64,000 nt of DNA from Cellulosilyticum sp. (GCA_017941635.1 JAGAVZ010000135.1:1-64000), one strand, 5' to 3'; counted from the stretch's first letter, positions 37,976-49,634 are shown. Numbers and translations: made by a program. Notes: generated from the letters alone by a model not told the origin.

Positions 37976-38072
37976 AAGAGGTCAACTGTTGAATCCATTA
38001 ATCATTTACAGCCATCTATACGATTTATATAGACTATGCTTTAATAATTAATCCATTCTGAGTTAACCTCTT
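37976..38072 (-). terminator. long imperfect hairpin after the dynamin operon
   Basis: Arms AAGAGGT..AACT..GAAT..ATTAAT pair with 38047-38072 over about 26 bases with some mismatches; the loop is about 45 bases. It is the likely end of the dynamin operon. Confidence 0.5.
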
Positions 38073-38086
38073 ATATACCTTACTGC

Positions 38087-38932
38087 TTATTTGAAGTTAA
38101 ACATTGAGCTGATTTGCTTGCTAAGTTGTGCTAGCTCTTTTTCGCAGTCTGGTGAAGTATATCTTAACTGATTAAATAACTCACTGCGATTGCTTAATCT
38201 TTGGATGGTTTTTGTAAATGCCTTATCTACCTTTTGCTCTTCATCTGCTCTATGAACTAAAACTTTAACATCTCCTTCTGACCCTCGATAGAAAAGAATT
38301 TTGTAGTGTTCATATAATGCTGTACGTTCTTTTAGAATTTCTAGGTGCTTTACTTCTAGAATTTCTTCTTGCTTTTGATTTGGATAATAGAGCATCTTTG
38401 GACTGATTGCTTTTAGCTCTTCTGGTCTTACTTCAATAACTACATTCGGTAAGAGATAAAAGCATTTCTCTTGTTGTACGACTTGGACAATGCTTTTTGC
38501 TTGTTCGATAGATTTCATATGAGTATCTATTTTTTTATCTGCATTCATCAGTCCTTTGTAGCACCAAGATACTTCTTGTTTTTTGTGTTGTAGGCTTTTG
38601 ATTGACTCTGCTGCTTTATATTCTTCTTTTGTAAAGCTAAGCTTGTTGCCTTCTTCTTTAACAATATCCATTTTAATGAGTTTATCTATTAAATCATTAA
38701 CGATATGATCGTCTAAATCGAGTACATCTATAATGCCATATCGGTCTGTGATGCCCTGTCTAATACATGTGCACATATAGCTTTCTAAAGTTCCAATCGG
38801 TGCGTTGCATGTGTATTCCATCATTAAATCCATTTTAACGAGAGGGAGATATGCATCTAATCCATTCACAAACTGATATCCTTCATAATAGTTACTATAA
38901 TCCTGCTCTATGAATTTTTCATTGGTTGCCAT
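38087..38932 (-). CDS. winged-helix-like protein of the dynamin operon
   Basis: 281 residues with AGGGAGGA upstream. Residues about 45-110 look like a winged helix (MCTCIRQGITDRYGIIDVLDLDDHIVNDLIDKLIKMDIVKEE). The rest mixes a coiled segment with a beta-rich part (YLLPNVVIEVRPEE, HYKILFYRGSEGDVKVLV). No membrane segment or catalytic motif. Last gene of the five-gene unit, 14 bases after the previous stop. A DNA- or protein-binding adaptor is possible. I do not recognise a family. Confidence 0.65.
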   Translation of the reverse strand: MATNEKFIEQDYSNYYEGYQFVNGLDAYLPLVKMDLMMEYTCNAPIGTLESYMCTCIRQGITDRYGIIDVLDLDDHIVNDLIDKLIKMDIVKEEGNKLSFTKEEYKAAESIKSLQHKKQEVSWCYKGLMNADKKIDTHMKSIEQAKSIVQVVQQEKCFYLLPNVVIEVRPEELKAISPKMLYYPNQKQEEILEVKHLEILKERTALYEHYKILFYRGSEGDVKVLVHRADEEQKVDKAFTKTIQRLSNRSELFNQLRYTSPDCEKELAQLSKQISSMFNFK

Positions 38933-38946
38933 ACGCGTCCTCCCTC

Positions 38947-41460
38947 TTATTGAATCTCTGACAATGCTTTTTTATGCGTTCTTAAGCATCTGTCGTATAG
39001 TTTTGCAAATAATGATGTTGGTTCTTTGGCTGCATCTCCCACTAGAACAGCTTTCTTTCCTCTTACTAAAGAAATAAGGAATTCTAAATTTGGCATATCC
39101 TGTGCTTCATGGATAATGACATATTCAAAATCATCTCTTAATAATCCTGTACGCTTATGCTCTACTAAAGCATGGTGAGTCGCACCAATGACATTGATTT
39201 GAGCTGCAAGATATGAAGTTAGCATGTCTTCATTTTCTTCTAAACTAGAACGCCAATCTTCTTTTAGCTTGGCAATCGCATCATAGAATGCAACTTTTTC
39301 TTTGTAGATTTCTAATTTGAAGGTTCTTTGCTCCACCGCAGCTTCTAACTTTTCTAAGCTCATTACACTTTCATGGCTTAATGGTGCTTGTAGGATTTGT
39401 TTAACCCCTTCTTCTTCCTCTTCAATAAGTTCAAGAAAATCTTTAAACATTTTTTCTTGTAACTTACTTTCAAGTAAGCTCATGATTTCTTCTTGTTTCT
39501 TGAGAACTTCAAGCATCTTCTCTTGGTTTTCTTCTTGTAATTTGATAAGCTGGTTGTTCTTTTCAACAATTACTTCAAGTTCAAGATATTCTTCTACACC
39601 TTCTAGATAAGTTGTATAGGTGCTTCCATCTTCAAATAAGCTTTCCACCCTTTGCATACATTTAAATACCTCAATTACATCCGCCTTTGTCATATCTTCT
39701 CTATGACAAGCTGTCATTAGACCTATGCTATAGTCTCTCATATAGCCTTCAACTTGTTCTTTAAGTTTATAAACTTTTTCTTTAAGTTCATCTAAATAAC
39801 GTGTACTGATAATACCTGTGGCAGTTTCTTCACCTTTTTGGCGGAAATCAGCCAGCTTTTCTTCTAATGCTTTGATATTCTCTTGTACACTTATATCTTC
39901 TACAATGCTGTCATTTGGGTCAATTTGTTTTAAGGCTGCTGTATTTAGATATTGACGTCTTGCTTCTAATAACTCTGTTTCAAGAACTTTGCACTGTTGC
40001 TCATAAGCATTTCTTTCTTGAATCTGTTTTTTATAGGCTTGAAGTTTTTCTTCAAACACTTGAACCTCTTTGCTATATTCTAATACAAGTGCCTTATTTT
40101 CTTCATAACCAATCGTTTCTCTATATGTTTTTGTCCAGAGCATTTCATTATATAGGTCATCACAAGTGCTGAGTTGCTCTTTTAGTCTGCCATAGGTTTC
40201 AAGCTCTTTATCTGATATAGATGCATACCTTTCCAGCGCATCTACATACGATGCCCCTTGATTGCCTAAAGCAAGTGATTCTTCTTGAAGTTTTACTTTA
40301 TCTTCTTCAACCTCTGCTAAAAGATTAAGGATATGATTTATAAGCTGAATCGTTTTTTCTGCATACGCATAGGTATCACACTCTGCTCTCATTTGGTCAA
40401 GTTCTTTTTTATGACGGTTATGCTTAGACGCTTCCTCTGTCAGCTTGTGTAAACTAGAATTCCTTAAGTGACTTACTTTATATTCTAAAGTATATGGACT
40501 GATTTCACCTTCTTCAGAAGACTGAATTTGAGTCACTTCAACCACACAGTTACAGTTATGAGTTTCTGTATTATGACTATCTAGATTACTATTTTCTGCA
40601 TCATATCCATTCACATTACAATGACCTTCATGGCAATATTCCTCAATGTCTTGTAACAACTCTTTTACTTGTTTTGAATCCGGTGCCACTATAAGTGTTC
40701 TTTGATTTTGTGCGCTTACTTGTTGCACTACTTCTCTCATTAAAGGTTTTGCATCGGTATCACCTTGTGTATCAATAAAGTATAGATTTTCTGTAGATAA
40801 TACTTGGTTAACAATATATTTTTGCTCTTCACTTAATAGCTCGTACCCACTTGTGAAGTGTTCAGGATTAACTTCCTTTAAATCAAACGGCTTGAGCTTT
40901 TCCACTGTTGGCATAAAGTCTTGCATACTGCTATTAGCTGCTTTGCCTTCATATAAATATCTTAAAGCTTCTTCTTGACCCACTTGATCAATGACCGCTT
41001 GTACTATTTCTTCATCCTTATGACCATCTGTCATAAAGCTATGCCATAATTTTACGTAATTTGCAAAGTCTCTTTTCTCTTTTTCTGACTGCATAAAACG
41101 TTCCACATCATGGTGCTCTTTTCCATTGATATACTGGAATTTGTAAACTGGAACAAAAGTAATTTTTTCTTCTAACAATTTTCCTTCTTCAATTGCCTTA
41201 TGATACATCAAAACATCTGTATCTTCTGCTCTGACAACTTTTAAATAACCCTTACTTTCACCAACACATTCTAATGTAATGGTGGCACTATATAAATAAA
41301 CCTTTAATCCCTGCTCTTTATCGAAACTTTCGCTATATAGTGTTCCTCTCCCTATCGGATTAAATTGACTTGTTAAATATCTAGACCATTCATTTGCCCC
41401 TTGTTCAACCATTTTCCCATGAATAAACTTCATAGGTGCATCTAATACTAATATATCCAT
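38947..41460 (-). CDS. coiled-coil protein with degenerate SF1 helicase halves
   Basis: 837 residues. Residues 1-200 are an unrecognised N-domain. At 209-262 the order LSEEQKYIVNQVL, YFIDTQGDTDAK, RTLIVAPDSKQV mimics motifs Q, I and Ia of SF1 helicases, but the P-loop lacks its second Gly and the Ser/Thr. About 330-740 is a long coiled coil with Glu/Gln-rich heptads. Then VIIHEAQD (781-788) stands where DExQ is expected, with His in place of the catalytic Asp, and AVLVGDAAKEP follows as motif III. The protein stops about 25 residues later with no second RecA domain. It should not hydrolyse ATP. A scaffold role is likely. Confidence 0.7.
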   Translation of the reverse strand: MDILVLDAPMKFIHGKMVEQGANEWSRYLTSQFNPIGRGTLYSESFDKEQGLKVYLYSATITLECVGESKGYLKVVRAEDTDVLMYHKAIEEGKLLEEKITFVPVYKFQYINGKEHHDVERFMQSEKEKRDFANYVKLWHSFMTDGHKDEEIVQAVIDQVGQEEALRYLYEGKAANSSMQDFMPTVEKLKPFDLKEVNPEHFTSGYELLSEEQKYIVNQVLSTENLYFIDTQGDTDAKPLMREVVQQVSAQNQRTLIVAPDSKQVKELLQDIEEYCHEGHCNVNGYDAENSNLDSHNTETHNCNCVVEVTQIQSSEEGEISPYTLEYKVSHLRNSSLHKLTEEASKHNRHKKELDQMRAECDTYAYAEKTIQLINHILNLLAEVEEDKVKLQEESLALGNQGASYVDALERYASISDKELETYGRLKEQLSTCDDLYNEMLWTKTYRETIGYEENKALVLEYSKEVQVFEEKLQAYKKQIQERNAYEQQCKVLETELLEARRQYLNTAALKQIDPNDSIVEDISVQENIKALEEKLADFRQKGEETATGIISTRYLDELKEKVYKLKEQVEGYMRDYSIGLMTACHREDMTKADVIEVFKCMQRVESLFEDGSTYTTYLEGVEEYLELEVIVEKNNQLIKLQEENQEKMLEVLKKQEEIMSLLESKLQEKMFKDFLELIEEEEEGVKQILQAPLSHESVMSLEKLEAAVEQRTFKLEIYKEKVAFYDAIAKLKEDWRSSLEENEDMLTSYLAAQINVIGATHHALVEHKRTGLLRDDFEYVIIHEAQDMPNLEFLISLVRGKKAVLVGDAAKEPTSLFAKLYDRCLRTHKKALSEIQ

Positions 41461-41466
41461 ATCTTT

Positions 41467-43308
41467 CTACCCCAACAAATCATCAATATTAAAATCTTTG
41501 TAATCTATTATTTCTTCAATAGCTTGAGTTTTCTCTAATGTTTCTGCAAGCTCTTTTTCCAACATCTTATATGGCTCTAAGCCTTCTTCTAGTTGTTTTA
41601 CTAACCCCTCTAATTCTATAGGTGTTTTCATTGCGCTTTGATTCATAAATTGATTTAAAAGCTGCTCTTCTACTTGTCCACTTAATGTTTCAAAGTGATT
41701 GTTTGTCACTAATTCGCAGCCCATTAAAATCTCTCTGATTCCTTTAACTTTTTCGCTGATTTCACCTTGGTAAGCCTCCACTTCACGCTTACTACTGTGT
41801 TTATCATATACTTTTCTTAAATAACCTACTGCAAGCCCACCTGCCAGAACCACAGGGAATACACTAAGCGCAGCACTTACCACACTCACACTTGCTGCTG
41901 CTGGTCCTAAGAATGCAATATATCCTGTTAAAGCAGAGCCAATCTTTACACTATCCCATAAACTATCTTTAATGACTGTGTTATCTTTTAAAGTTTCCAT
42001 TTGCTCAATGTCTTCAACATGTTTTTCTTCGTTAAATAACATCGTACTGTTATAAAGTTTTTCTTGTTCAATATGGAGATTTTCTGCAAATCTTCTAAGC
42101 TCCTCAAGGCAAGAGTCATCTAATTGTTTCACTCTTTTCTCCCAAGACGCTTCTAATTGCTGACAAAGATCTTGAATTCGCTCTTGTATTGTTTCATTAA
42201 TATGCTCTTCGCAGAGATACTCTGTCTCTAATTGACCTAGCTGCTCTAAGCTTATTTTCTTTTGGTTCATCTCACGCATTTCATCTGCTAAGAAACCATA
42301 TTTAATCCATGAAACAAACTTTTCTTGAATTTCTTCACTAATTTCTTTGTGAATATCATGAATAGAGCCTTCATAATCTCTAATCATTTTTTGAACCTGA
42401 TTACTAATTTGAATCATCTCATCGTGATAGCCTATTTCTCTTTCAATAAGCGCCAGTAAGCTTTGTGTAATCACTTCTTTTTTCTTATTTTCAATGTCTT
42501 CACCGATTTCTTCTTGGATTGCATTTAAAAGTCTTGCCACGCCATTATTTGGTGTTATTTCACCACGTTCCACAGCTTCTAACTCTTGGTAAGCTGATAA
42601 TGGAATGTATGTGCTAATCTCTGGCATATCTCTTTCGGCACTTGCCATAATTTCCTCTTGGCTTGCGCATACCTCATCAATGCGATTTAAAACACCAATC
42701 ATTTCCTTTCCTTGGCCTTTGATGTCAAATATATAATCTCGCACATTTTGCTGACCAATATAATTGCTGTTAAATACCCAAATCACAATATCCGCCCATG
42801 GAATATAGCGTTTTGTAATCTCTTCATTTGAATCCGTTACTGTACCAAGTCCTGGTGTATCGATTAAGTCAAATTGCTTTAAAATCGGTAGATTAAGCCC
42901 AATCTCAATATTTGTACATTCCTTGATAAAAGCAGCTTCACCACTTTTTTCTTCTAGCATTTCCACTAATTTATCCACATCTTGTAATTTAAAACGTCCA
43001 TTCTTTGTAATTACACTGCACTCTTCTTCTTCACTATAGTAAAAATGATAGATTGCAGAAGTTGCTTCTAAAACGCTTGTTCTAGATAATCTTTTACCTA
43101 AAATGCTATTAATTAATGTGGATTTACCCGCTTTAACTTCACCCATTAAAACCACTTTAATCGGTAAATTTAGAGAACCTCTGATAATATCTAGGCATCC
43201 TTTATTTTCTTCAAATAATGGCTGAAACTGTGCAAATAGTGTGCTTTCCTCACTACGCCCAGGTGCTTCCTCCATGATTTCGTGTAACTTATCTATATAT
43301 TGTTCCAT
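41467..43308 (-). CDS. dynamin-like GTPase with membrane-inserting hairpin
   Basis: 613 residues. G1 GEVKAGKST (56-64), G3 DTPG (150-153), G4 NRID (208-211): a complete dynamin-type GTPase. Helical stalk regions flank a hydrophobic double segment at about 455-498, placed like the paddle or membrane hairpin of bacterial dynamin-like proteins. It starts six bases after the upstream dynamin. Bacterial dynamins often act as unequal pairs, and this one has the membrane part. Function inferred: GTP-driven membrane binding or fusion. Confidence 0.88.
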   Translation of the reverse strand: MEQYIDKLHEIMEEAPGRSEESTLFAQFQPLFEENKGCLDIIRGSLNLPIKVVLMGEVKAGKSTLINSILGKRLSRTSVLEATSAIYHFYYSEEEECSVITKNGRFKLQDVDKLVEMLEEKSGEAAFIKECTNIEIGLNLPILKQFDLIDTPGLGTVTDSNEEITKRYIPWADIVIWVFNSNYIGQQNVRDYIFDIKGQGKEMIGVLNRIDEVCASQEEIMASAERDMPEISTYIPLSAYQELEAVERGEITPNNGVARLLNAIQEEIGEDIENKKKEVITQSLLALIEREIGYHDEMIQISNQVQKMIRDYEGSIHDIHKEISEEIQEKFVSWIKYGFLADEMREMNQKKISLEQLGQLETEYLCEEHINETIQERIQDLCQQLEASWEKRVKQLDDSCLEELRRFAENLHIEQEKLYNSTMLFNEEKHVEDIEQMETLKDNTVIKDSLWDSVKIGSALTGYIAFLGPAAASVSVVSAALSVFPVVLAGGLAVGYLRKVYDKHSSKREVEAYQGEISEKVKGIREILMGCELVTNNHFETLSGQVEEQLLNQFMNQSAMKTPIELEGLVKQLEEGLEPYKMLEKELAETLEKTQAIEEIIDYKDFNIDDLLG

Positions 43309-43314
43309 TCTTCA

Positions 43315-45249
43315 TCACCCATTCCCTTTAATGTAATCCATTATCGTACTTTCTCTCGTTGGCTGTGATAATATCTTATCTATTGTTTTTAAAGCATAAA
43401 GTTGATTGATGCGTACCTTATCATTTCCATAAATTCCGTCAAACTGATTTTGTCTAATCTCAAGAATCTGCTTTTGCTCCTGTAATAAACTTGTTTGTAA
43501 TTCTTCTGTTAAATGATGTGTCATTGTTTCTACTAATTGCGTTAGCCCTTCAAAGAGCTTTTCCTTACACTCTTCGATATATGGCTTGTCTACCATTTTC
43601 TTTACAGCACTAATACTACTAACTAGTTTTCTAAGCGGATGATTTTCTACCTTCTCTAAGCCTAAGTTCATTTCAACTAGGCTAAAATATTTCTCTATAC
43701 TAAATGTATCCACCCAATCTTGCATTGGATACGTTGTAACTTTTCTGAGTTCCAGCTTATCCACATACTCTAACTGAATACGCTCTACTTGTTTTAAAAT
43801 TACTTGAAGTAATTCTTTAACTTCTCCTTCAATAGCTGCCACATTAAAAATCTCTTCATTCATAACAGCCTCTTTATCTCTATCTATTTCAAACAATGCC
43901 TCTGTGAATTTTTCAATATGAGATGAAACCATATGTTCATAGCTTAAAATCATATCTTCAAGTTGAACTTTACTTTCTTCTTGAAGTTTTTTAAAAGCCT
44001 CTGAAATCGCTTTATTTCGTGCAATATGCTCTTTAAGTTTCTCTTCAAGCTCTTGAATATAATAGCTGAGTAAAACTTGAAACTTCATTTCTTCTCGCTG
44101 AATTTCACTTAAAAGCTTCTCTGTTTTGACTTGGTTTGCCCCTTTCAAGAAATGGATATTGATATAATCTTCCAAGGCGATATAACCACTTTGTTTAAGT
44201 AGCATTTCATCACCTTCAAGTCTTGCTTTAAGTGCAGTCGCTGCTGAAAATGGTAAGATACTATTAAATTCTTCACCATATATCTCATAAGCCTGCTCTA
44301 AGATGCGTGCTTTCTCTTCTTCACTGCGTATACAATCACTTCTATTAAGAAGTGCTAGCATTTCTTTACGCTGACAAGCCTTTGTCTTGCCAAATAACTC
44401 TTCTTCTATTTCTCTGATATGCGTTTTGGTTGAATTCATAGCAATCTTATTCATATCCATAACCCATATAATCCCATCGGCCTCATCATAATACTTCTTG
44501 ATAGACTCTTGAAGTGCACTCGCCACTCGATTTTGTCTAAGACCTGGTGTATCTACCACTTGAAAGTTTGCAAGCACCTCATTAGTCTCTACTGGCCATT
44601 TCGCCTCTATAATATCTGAAGTGTACAAATCCTCTCTCCAAAGACGCTCTTTGTAATCTTCTAGCTTGTCTGCTACTTCTCTAAAAGGAATATGCTGTGC
44701 TTTACAGATTTTTTGAATTGCTTCTGTTTTTTCTTTTATATTCGATTGAATCTTATGTATGGAATCATTACGTTTTATTTCTTCTTCCTCAATAAGTTTC
44801 TTTGCATCTTCACTAGACAAAGTGCTTACCTTATTTCCCTTTTTATCATAGGTTACAAGCTGCACCCCTTTTGATATTTCATCATGAAAAACATCAATCT
44901 TCCATGTCATTGGGTCAAACTTCATCTTTGCTACTTCTTTACCTAGCAATGTATTAACAACTGTTGATTTCCCAGCATTTCCATCCCCAATTACAAAGAT
45001 AGAAAACTTATCCTCTAACTTATTTGCTAGTGTTCTTAGTCTTCTAATCCCTTGGCTAACTTCCTCCACACATTGTAGTTCTCTTTCTGACTGGTTATCA
45101 GATGTAACGAGCGGAACAATAGCCGCTTCAATGCGGTTAATCTTTTCTTCCAACCTACCCTTTATATAAAAACGCTCTCTATTAATTTTTTCTGCTTCTA
45201 ATTTTTCATAAAAAGTTACCAGTTTACTTGCTATCTCGTGAATCGCCAT
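43315..45249 (-). CDS. dynamin-like GTPase, soluble partner
   Basis: 644 residues. G1 GDGNAGKST (88-96), G3 VVDTPGLRQN (D233), G4 NRSD (302-305). Long helical regions after about 385 form the probable stalk. No hydrophobic hairpin is found, so it differs from the neighbouring GTPase. It starts two bases after the end of the tail-anchored coiled-coil gene. It probably forms a hetero-oligomer with the second GTPase. Confidence 0.88.
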   Translation of the reverse strand: MAIHEIASKLVTFYEKLEAEKINRERFYIKGRLEEKINRIEAAIVPLVTSDNQSERELQCVEEVSQGIRRLRTLANKLEDKFSIFVIGDGNAGKSTVVNTLLGKEVAKMKFDPMTWKIDVFHDEISKGVQLVTYDKKGNKVSTLSSEDAKKLIEEEEIKRNDSIHKIQSNIKEKTEAIQKICKAQHIPFREVADKLEDYKERLWREDLYTSDIIEAKWPVETNEVLANFQVVDTPGLRQNRVASALQESIKKYYDEADGIIWVMDMNKIAMNSTKTHIREIEEELFGKTKACQRKEMLALLNRSDCIRSEEEKARILEQAYEIYGEEFNSILPFSAATALKARLEGDEMLLKQSGYIALEDYINIHFLKGANQVKTEKLLSEIQREEMKFQVLLSYYIQELEEKLKEHIARNKAISEAFKKLQEESKVQLEDMILSYEHMVSSHIEKFTEALFEIDRDKEAVMNEEIFNVAAIEGEVKELLQVILKQVERIQLEYVDKLELRKVTTYPMQDWVDTFSIEKYFSLVEMNLGLEKVENHPLRKLVSSISAVKKMVDKPYIEECKEKLFEGLTQLVETMTHHLTEELQTSLLQEQKQILEIRQNQFDGIYGNDKVRINQLYALKTIDKILSQPTRESTIMDYIKGNG

Positions 45250-45251
45250 AA

Positions 45252-45824
45252 TTAATTACCTCTGGCAATAATAAAAATAAGTAAACCGACAACTGCTGCC
45301 ATTAAACCAAAATTCACATAGAATAATTTTTGAATCTTATCATTAAGTGCTTTTTGATTTGTTGCAACCGTTTCTTGAAGTGTTCTATAACTTTCCCCCA
45401 TCACACTACTGCTCTCTTTGAATAATCGATCGATATTCTCCATATGTGCATCCACTTGCTCACTCATAGTAGACACTTCAGTACGTAGCTTTTCATTAGT
45501 GATATATAGTTCCTGCGTGCTTTGATTCACTATATTTTTAATACGCTCTTCACTTTCTTTAATCTCTGATGCTTGTTTTTCACACACATCATAAACTAAA
45601 GCTTTAATTTCTTCTTCTGATATATAATCTAAACCTTGAAGTTTATGTTTAACTCTTTCAACTTCAGCACTAATCTCTTCAAGAGCATCTGCAATCTCTG
45701 CCTTATAGCTTCTTGTTACAACATCCTTTGCAACCTCTTTCATCTGTGCTTCTTTAAGCACCTCTAAAGAAATTGCTTCTATTAACCCTTTAAATTCGTC
45801 TAATAAATTGTTCTCTGCTGCCAA
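45252..45824 (-). CDS. tail-anchored coiled-coil protein, first gene of the dynamin operon
   Basis: About 190 residues. I choose the TTG at 45824: AAGGAG lies nine bases upstream, and the promoter's predicted start of transcription lies inside the upstream ATG (45860) reading frame. The protein is helical and acidic with coiled coil from about 40 to 165. A single C-terminal membrane helix (FGLMAAVVGLLIFIIA) ends in RGN, so the body faces the cytoplasm. It could recruit the dynamins to the membrane. Confidence 0.72.
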   Translation of the reverse strand: MAAENNLLDEFKGLIEAISLEVLKEAQMKEVAKDVVTRSYKAEIADALEEISAEVERVKHKLQGLDYISEEEIKALVYDVCEKQASEIKESEERIKNIVNQSTQELYITNEKLRTEVSTMSEQVDAHMENIDRLFKESSSVMGESYRTLQETVATNQKALNDKIQKLFYVNFGLMAAVVGLLIFIIARGN

Positions 45825-45862
45825 TGTTTTGTGCTCCTTATTGTAAAAATTGGTATACATTC

Positions 45863-45891
45863 ATTATACGTTTCCCCCTAGTACTTTTCCA
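45863..45891 (-). promoter_or_regulatory. promoter of the dynamin operon
   Basis: On the minus strand TGGAAA (45891-45886), 17 bases, then TATAAT (45868-45863). Transcription would begin about 45856, which is after the ATG at 45860 and before the AAGGAG-TTG start. Confidence 0.55.
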
Positions 45892-45968: not shown

Positions 45969-46011
45969 AAATAGAAATAGGACCCCCACCTTGGAAGTCC
46001 TATTTCTATTT
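45969..46011. terminator. terminator separating GNAT and dynamin operon
   Basis: A perfect 15-base stem (45969-45983 with 45997-46011). It blocks read-through from the genes upstream into the dynamin operon. Confidence 0.8.
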
Positions 46012-48629: not shown

Positions 48630-49106
48630 CTACAATTCTCTACCAAACTGAATTTGATTTTGTTGCGAATTATATCCTTTATCATGATTGATAAGTTGAG
48701 CATTTATTTTATTGATTTGTTCATATAAAGCATCTCTTATCTTTTCAGCTAATTGAATACTATACTCTGCTTCTTCTCGATCTCTAACTTCTGTATAGTT
48801 ATCTCCTGGATATCTTGCATCAAAATACCAATCACCCAAATACTTACACTCTATAGGGTTAAGTATCTTTTCTCCTACAAACTCATTGATTAATAAAGCC
48901 ATTTTTCTTAGATTATGAGTCACTAAATCCTTATCGTGTTTTCCACCTTCATTCATAAAGTCATTGATGAATCCCTTCATGAATTTTTCAGCACTCTGTT
49001 GTGCCTGAACAACGACCATATTATATTGTCCCATTTGATCACCTATATTCATACTGGACTTTGCCCATAATAAGTCATTCTCAGCTATATCTCTATATGT
49101 TTTCAT
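48630..49106 (-). CDS. HEPN domain protein of a HEPN/MNT pair
   Basis: About 158 residues from the ATG at 49106, with AAAGGAGGTG upstream; a longer frame to 49172 has no site. The fold is helical (DIAENDLLWAKSSM, QAQQSAEKFMKGFI, WYFDARYPGDNY), typical of the TM0613-type HEPN family. The RNase motif R-x4-6-H is not found, unlike the HEPN protein at 8092. It overlaps the MNT gene by 14 bases. The pair resembles type VII toxin-antitoxin HepT/MntA modules, but a toxic activity is doubtful here. Confidence 0.8.
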   Translation of the reverse strand: MKTYRDIAENDLLWAKSSMNIGDQMGQYNMVVVQAQQSAEKFMKGFINDFMNEGGKHDKDLVTHNLRKMALLINEFVGEKILNPIECKYLGDWYFDARYPGDNYTEVRDREEAEYSIQLAEKIRDALYEQINKINAQLINHDKGYNSQQNQIQFGREL

Positions 49107-49503
49107 GTTGTACACCTCCTTTATGATAAATTTGTATACCTCCACCAATTTCTCTATATAAACGTTGCTCATAATAATTTTCTATATATGTTTTTTCTTC
49201 AATTACTACTACATTTGTTTCAACATGGAATCTAGTATCGTCATTTAAAGTCATTCTTAAATCTACTATTTCATACTTATCTAATACTTCACTTGTAATA
49301 ACACATAAATCAATATCACTTTGAAGTGTTGCTATACCTTTACTACAGGAGCCAAACAAAATAATATAATTGATTTTATCAAAATATGTTGTATCCCCTA
49401 GGTAGTTTAAATCACTTATAAGTTTCAGAATATGAATCTTTGGCATATGTAATTTTTCTTCTAGCTTTCTTTCTAATTCCTCTTTGTTAAAGCTCCATTT
49501 CAT
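49093..49503 (-). CDS. minimal nucleotidyltransferase (MNT)
   Basis: About 136 residues. The ATG at 49503 is six bases after AAAGGGGTG; an earlier ATG at 49512 is too close. The nucleotidyltransferase motif GS-x10-DxD is complete (LFGSCSKGIATLQSDIDLCV). MNT antitoxins AMPylate HEPN partners (family knowledge). Confidence 0.83.
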   Translation of the reverse strand: MKWSFNKEELERKLEEKLHMPKIHILKLISDLNYLGDTTYFDKINYIILFGSCSKGIATLQSDIDLCVITSEVLDKYEIVDLRMTLNDDTRFHVETNVVVIEEKTYIENYYEQRLYREIGGGIQIYHKGGVQHENI

Positions 49504-49634
49504 AGCATTCACCCCTTTATTTTTATTATTTACATATCAATCTATTTTAATACCATTATTAATTTTTATTGTATAGATGTTAGTTATTATACTTTCTTCT
49601 ACCACCATTGTAAACTTCACTTCACATGGTTAAA

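Follow-up and report, generated by a model that had tools for sequence, protein, structure and literature searches.

A five-gene Cellulosilyticum operon with two dynamin-like GTPases and predicted relatives of Mokosh proteins

What tells a pair of bacterial dynamins when to act? Bacterial dynamins usually come in pairs, of which that of C. jejuni builds a tethering complex (PMC6104087), and LeoABC is another such bacterial dynamin set (PMC4159319). In the window, by which we mean the whole stretch of Cellulosilyticum sp. DNA analysed here (64,000 nucleotides; GCA_017941635.1 JAGAVZ010000135.1:1-64000), a dynamin pair is tied to a disabled relative of a known defence helicase and to that relative's partner, a concrete candidate for the signal in question. 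We asked what the operon encodes, where else it occurs, and which function best accounts for its composition.

Operon layout and the dynamin pair

A minus-strand operon at 38087-45824 comprises five ORFs, in the order tail-anchored coiled coil, dynB, dynC, D and E, separated by gaps of 14, 6, 6 and 2 nt (listed by ascending coordinate). ORF positions thus bear out the five-gene order and the gaps of 2 to 14 bases given in a sequence-only reading of this DNA, and its calls of D as a pseudo-helicase and of E as a winged-helix protein hold as well. Cellulosilyticum sp. SIG270 (L009) has all five genes in this order, at the corresponding place in its chromosome. The features of the operon outside D and E are as follows.

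45969..46011, minus strand: inverted repeat with 15-bp arms, 5' of the operon (read from the sequence)
45863..45891, minus strand: probable operon promoter, TGGAAA-17-TATAAT (chance level by scan alone; TATAAT and leader kept in SIG270)
45252..45824, minus strand: gene 1, coiled coil with a tail anchor, 190 aa from a probable TTG start (SIG270 keeps the start, leader and Shine-Dalgarno)
45264..45323, minus strand: C-terminal membrane helix of gene 1, with about 3 residues after the helix (hydropathy)
43315..45249, minus strand: gene 2 (dynB), 644-aa dynamin-like GTPase lacking a membrane hairpin (Dynamin_N 2.2e-16; G1/G3/G4)
41467..43308, minus strand: gene 3 (dynC), 613-aa dynamin-like GTPase that has a hydrophobic hairpin (Dynamin_N 2.9e-21; G1/G3/G4)
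41824..41934, minus strand: dynC hydrophobic hairpin, roughly aa 459-495, a predicted paddle-like membrane insertion (hydropathy; strongly conserved in SIG270)
37976..38072, minus strand: 12-bp inverted repeat, arms 38061-38072 and 37976-37987, loop of about 73 nt (read from the sequence)

We moved the start of gene 1 from ATG 45860, the start of the listed ORF, to TTG 45824, because a TATAAT -10 box lies only 2 nt upstream of the ATG and because the 5' leader, an AAGGAG Shine-Dalgarno and the TTG itself are all conserved in SIG270; the listed ORF is probably too long, and the TTG is probably the true start. Hydropathy confirmed one C-terminal membrane helix in the gene 1 product, as the sequence-only reading had it (2.41 in the window protein and 2.35 in SIG270), and a tail-anchor topology is probable. 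A promoter belonging to the operon and hairpins on both sides had also been claimed, and these fared less evenly. Scanning the region returned promoter-like and terminator-like matches at chance level (36 found versus 36.6 expected, and 3 found versus 3.9 expected, respectively), and it is conservation of the -10 box and leader in SIG270 that argues for the promoter. Inverted repeats are indeed present by inspection on either side, but neither was listed as a terminator by the simple scan. The repeat 5' of the operon may terminate the gene before the operon, and the other, which lies 3' of gene 5 (E) and is followed by a short T run, is a possible terminator of the operon.

Both GTPases carry full G1 (GDGNAGKS and GEVKAGKS), G3 (DTPG in both) and G4 (NRSD and NRID) motifs, as previously claimed, together with Dynamin_N matches above the Pfam cut-off, which from sequence places both in the bacterial dynamin superfamily. 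The hydrophobic hairpin is confined to dynC, with none detected by hydropathy in dynB, again in agreement with the earlier description. Identity to the SIG270 counterparts is 64% for dynB and 74% for dynC. Like Eleos, the operon has neighbouring dynamins of which one part binds the membrane (dynB-dynC, with the hairpin in dynC), and this arrangement is a generic trait of bacterial dynamin pairs.

The pseudo-helicase D and the winged-helix protein E

One paper on the defence system Mokosh reports that it degrades viral transcripts (PMC11291487), although its mechanism is given as unknown in a recent review (PMC12926258). The last two genes of the operon resemble the helicase MkoA and its partner MkoB from type I of this system.

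38947..41460, minus strand: gene 4 (D), MkoA-related pseudo-helicase with a long coiled-coil insertion, 837 aa (PADLOC, hhalign, motifs)
41089..41460, minus strand: first 124 aa of D, where constraint is strongest (89-92% identity between species)
38950..39288, minus strand: RecA1 remnant (motifs II-III region) at the C-terminus of D, ending before QYRM (hhalign, motifs)
38087..38932, minus strand: gene 5 (E), probable MkoB-like protein of 281 aa with a winged helix and no PLD nuclease (PADLOC MkoB)
38630..38791, minus strand: predicted winged helix-turn-helix of E, about aa 48-101 (model; alignment to MkoB)

D matched the PADLOC MkoA profile at 4.2e-12 and a profile of three Mokosh MkoA helicases with an hhalign probability of 97% (E 6.9e-11), and its best match among solved structures was SMUBP-2, an Upf1-like helicase (2.6e-6). 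When a D profile was run against 1424 ORFs from the loci fetched, the top non-self matches were kinase-helicases of Mokosh loci. On plasmids, the sole match to D was a kinase-helicase followed by a PLD protein. These data indicate that D is, on sequence grounds, a homologue of MkoA, the helicase of anti-phage Mokosh type I. The alignment covers the motifs II-III region up to the residues before QYRM, and the D stop falls just before the expected QYRM in all three species, so that the second RecA domain is missing. The shared end point also led us to reject D as a frameshifted full helicase. Walker A (GxxGxGKT), present as GPPGTGKT in six control MkoA proteins, is gone from D in each of the three species, and motif II reads HEAQ, SEAH and HQAH. 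D accordingly does not have the intact Walker A and complete pair of RecA domains that mark the COG1112-type helicase of Mokosh, and Pfam found in it no serine-threonine kinase domain, which was present in all three MkoA proteins scanned with Pfam.

The middle of D is a coiled coil of approximately 400 residues, helical in a low-confidence model (mean pLDDT 43.7, from a two-sequence alignment). Identity between species is 53-54% for the whole protein versus 89-92% for the N-terminal 124 aa, for which we found no relatives in 311 class genomes or on plasmids; these residues are probably the main interaction surface.

E matched PADLOC MkoB at 1.2e-6, with residues 25-274 colinear with MkoB 6-269 and the first 130 residues in nearly gapless alignment to three MkoB proteins, and is 57-60% identical in two other species. 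Three helices followed by two strands are the only fairly confident part of its model (mean pLDDT 38.5, two-sequence alignment). Pfam detected no PLD nuclease domain in E, nor in four of six control MkoB proteins. We examined seven MkoA/MkoB-type loci drawn from Bacillota, Actinomycetota and Cyanobacteriota, and an E-like winged-helix protein stood directly downstream of an intact helicase in every one; PADLOC confirmed MkoA-MkoB in all five of these that were scanned. E likewise occupies the position of a MkoB partner directly downstream of D and resembles the N-terminal part of MkoB, with a sequence signal that by itself is modest. Because generic winged-helix ORFs score about as well as MkoB proteins against the E profile (1424 ORFs), the case for E as MkoB-like rests on length, colinearity and gene position taken together, and on these it is probably homologous to MkoB. 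Mokosh type I pairs were met at L012, L052, L053, L120 and L122 (Lachnospirales and other taxa); the winged-helix part was present in all of their MkoB proteins, several of which had no Pfam PLD.

Distribution, synteny and selection

The sequence-only reading had proposed asking whether the five genes stay together and near defence genes. They do travel together, with all five in SIG270 and D-E in a third species (L010), where the contig begins at D. As to their surroundings, the only defence-type genes close by are a HEPN and MNT nucleotidyltransferase pair (48630-49172 and 49093-49512, minus strand) approximately 3 kb upstream of the operon; the pair is conserved in SIG270, where the HEPN ORF is apparently shortened to 84 aa. 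The same L,D-transpeptidase gene follows the operon in all three species, with a sortase gene between them in the window. Most genes on both flanks in SIG270 have counterparts in the window, and synteny extends over tens of kilobases; from these shared flanking genes we conclude that a subclade has inherited the operon as part of its chromosome.

We did not find the operon in four other Cellulosilyticum genomes, one of which is a single contig. We found no exact empty site: the transpeptidase gene has different neighbours in G005 and sits at a contig end in G006. Further copies were found neither with the E profile in 392 order genomes, nor with the dynB profile (E<=1e-8) in 291 class genomes, nor on the plasmids, phages or viral contigs searched, and in 329 phylum genomes the MkoB-type winged helix occurred in MkoA/MkoB-type loci only. 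Known distribution is limited to one genus and a few Cellulosilyticum species.

Each of the five genes is under purifying selection, with dN/dS between species of 0.11-0.24, values that are rough because synonymous sites are near saturation. Operon genes are 52-74% identical between species, compared to 88% for FtsH, 80% for MATE and 62% for the L,D-transpeptidase, and so diverge faster than FtsH and MATE and about as fast as the transpeptidase.

Other dynamin clusters in order genomes and on plasmids had no D or E counterpart. Related plasmid dynamins sit in clusters of several dynamins, and abortive-infection genes lie close to two of these clusters. A Lachnospirales genome (L081 7606-14359) and a Paenibacillus plasmid (L115 2843-9710, with an abortive-infection gene nearby) share a common multi-dynamin cassette unlike the operon, consisting of a GVTSSGKS dynamin, a 207-241 aa protein ending with a KKWF stretch, a DLPG-type dynamin and a GETSSGKT dynamin. 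In genome G149 (L080 1-13562), three dynamins accompany zinc-ribbon-like proteins. Approximately 3.3 kb downstream lies a helicase-like ORF that carries GPPGTGKS, possibly a further dynamin-helicase neighbourhood; the ORF has no MkoB-like neighbour, and we did not count it as a D-E-like case.

Candidate functions and known systems

Membrane remodelling is the natural reading of two dynamins and a tail anchor, as predicted from the proteins themselves. Our best explanation, to which we give somewhat less than an even chance, is that the whole operon encodes a single dynamin machine, anchored in the membrane and governed by a sensor or scaffold that derives from Mokosh and has no catalytic activity. 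DynB and DynC would act jointly on the cytoplasmic membrane as unequal dynamins, perhaps in a heterotypic complex, with the DynC hairpin inserting in the membrane and DynB staying soluble, and the tail-anchored coiled coil may be their membrane dock. D-E would be a repurposed Mokosh-type sensing unit that kept target or partner recognition and has no ATPase, kinase or nuclease activity, and this switch or scaffold would recruit or release the dynamins on foreign nucleic acid or phage-induced damage; binding of D and E to nucleic acid or to the dynamins is predicted only. The membrane would then be resealed and lysis delayed, as with B. subtilis DynA, which delays phage lysis (PMC8844932), or the membrane would be sacrificed. 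In this view a subclade of Cellulosilyticum linked two dynamins to a sensor that came from Mokosh and was stripped of its own effectors. If true, selection has retained a helicase as a scaffold although its catalytic motifs are gone. We counted vertical inheritance, restriction to one genus, the modest E-MkoB score and the poor structure models against this explanation. Its immune form, in which the dead Mokosh-derived helicase-winged-helix pair detects phage and triggers the docked dynamins to reseal or destroy the membrane, is more doubtful, and we regard it as possible rather than likely; if true, this coupling of a nucleic-acid sensor to dynamins as effector would be a new kind of immune system.

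Phage defence and envelope repair had both been offered in the sequence-only reading. The Mokosh-like D-E and a weak likeness to Eleos speak for the defence idea, but the fixed, inherited site with no defence island counts against it. That fixed site is why envelope repair stays a serious rival: a housekeeping or stress machine acting on cell-wall stress, sporulation or membrane-active compounds, in which D and E would serve as structural adaptors and phage would not be the trigger. The vertically inherited position beside the L,D-transpeptidase and the window's sortase, with no mobile context, fits such a role, as do the membrane surveillance against antibiotics also ascribed to B. subtilis DynA (PMC8844932) and the membrane repair suspected of the C. 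jejuni pair (PMC6104087). However, the operon was not found in four other genomes of the genus (one a single contig), D and E resemble an anti-phage system, and D diverges faster than the flanking FtsH and MATE. We consider such an envelope machine possible but less likely, and favour phage defence over general envelope repair only moderately.

Two further accounts deny D and E a sensing role. E could bind DNA and regulate the operon while D is a structural coiled coil, with the Mokosh likeness reflecting ancient shared domains only; the confident part of E is the kind of winged helix found in bacterial regulators, and generic winged-helix ORFs match its profile about as well as MkoB does. The long colinear match (25-274 versus 6-269, with its first 130 residues nearly gapless) and a D-E adjacency identical to that of MkoA-MkoB make this improbable. 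Alternatively, D and E could be decaying Mokosh remnants beside dynamins that alone are functional, as the lost catalytic motifs of D and the missing kinase and PLD might suggest. Yet the ORFs are intact in three species (53-63% identity, dN/dS 0.11-0.24), the N-terminal 124 aa of D are 89-92% identical, and selection already disfavours decay, so we give this account very little credence.

Setting the operon beside described systems, we found that it shares with Mokosh type I a D that resembles the MkoA helicase, an E that resembles the N-terminal part of MkoB, and a like gene order and adjacency. It differs in that D is without the kinase, Walker A and second RecA domain of MkoA and adds a coiled-coil insertion and an unrelated N-terminal domain, E is without PLD, and the operon adds dynamins and a tail-anchored protein. 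We rejected the operon as a Mokosh member on the kinase, Walker A, second RecA and PLD features. With Eleos, described as a dynamin-like defence system (PMC11811056), it shares two side-by-side dynamins and one membrane-anchored component. DynC matched PADLOC LeoA at 5.6e-20 and LeoBC at 2.5e-18, and DynB matched LeoBC at 3.4e-10; the LeoA subfamily score was 44.5 versus an NCBIfam cut-off of 325 bits. We rejected Eleos membership on this wide shortfall: the predicted proteins resemble LeoA/LeoBC only distantly, the dynamin is not split as LeoB/LeoC, and there are three further genes.

To our knowledge, B. subtilis DynA has no helicase or winged-helix partner. DynA shares unequal dynamin units on a membrane and offers a model for lysis delay (PMC8844932), but is a single fused protein of two dynamin units (PMC6104087). 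Campylobacter Cj-DLP1/Cj-DLP2 are operon-paired dynamins that form a heterotypic tethering complex (PMC6104087); their partner, however, is an HcpA-like beta-lactamase gene, with no D/E counterpart described. The papers found describe no dynamin-Mokosh combination, and none of them treats Cellulosilyticum with a dynamin. The earlier statement that no named system has these five parts thus holds in the databases and papers searched, with the qualification that D and E are kin to Mokosh: each half of the operon, the dynamins and D-E, has a known relative, and it is their combination that is new in those databases and papers.
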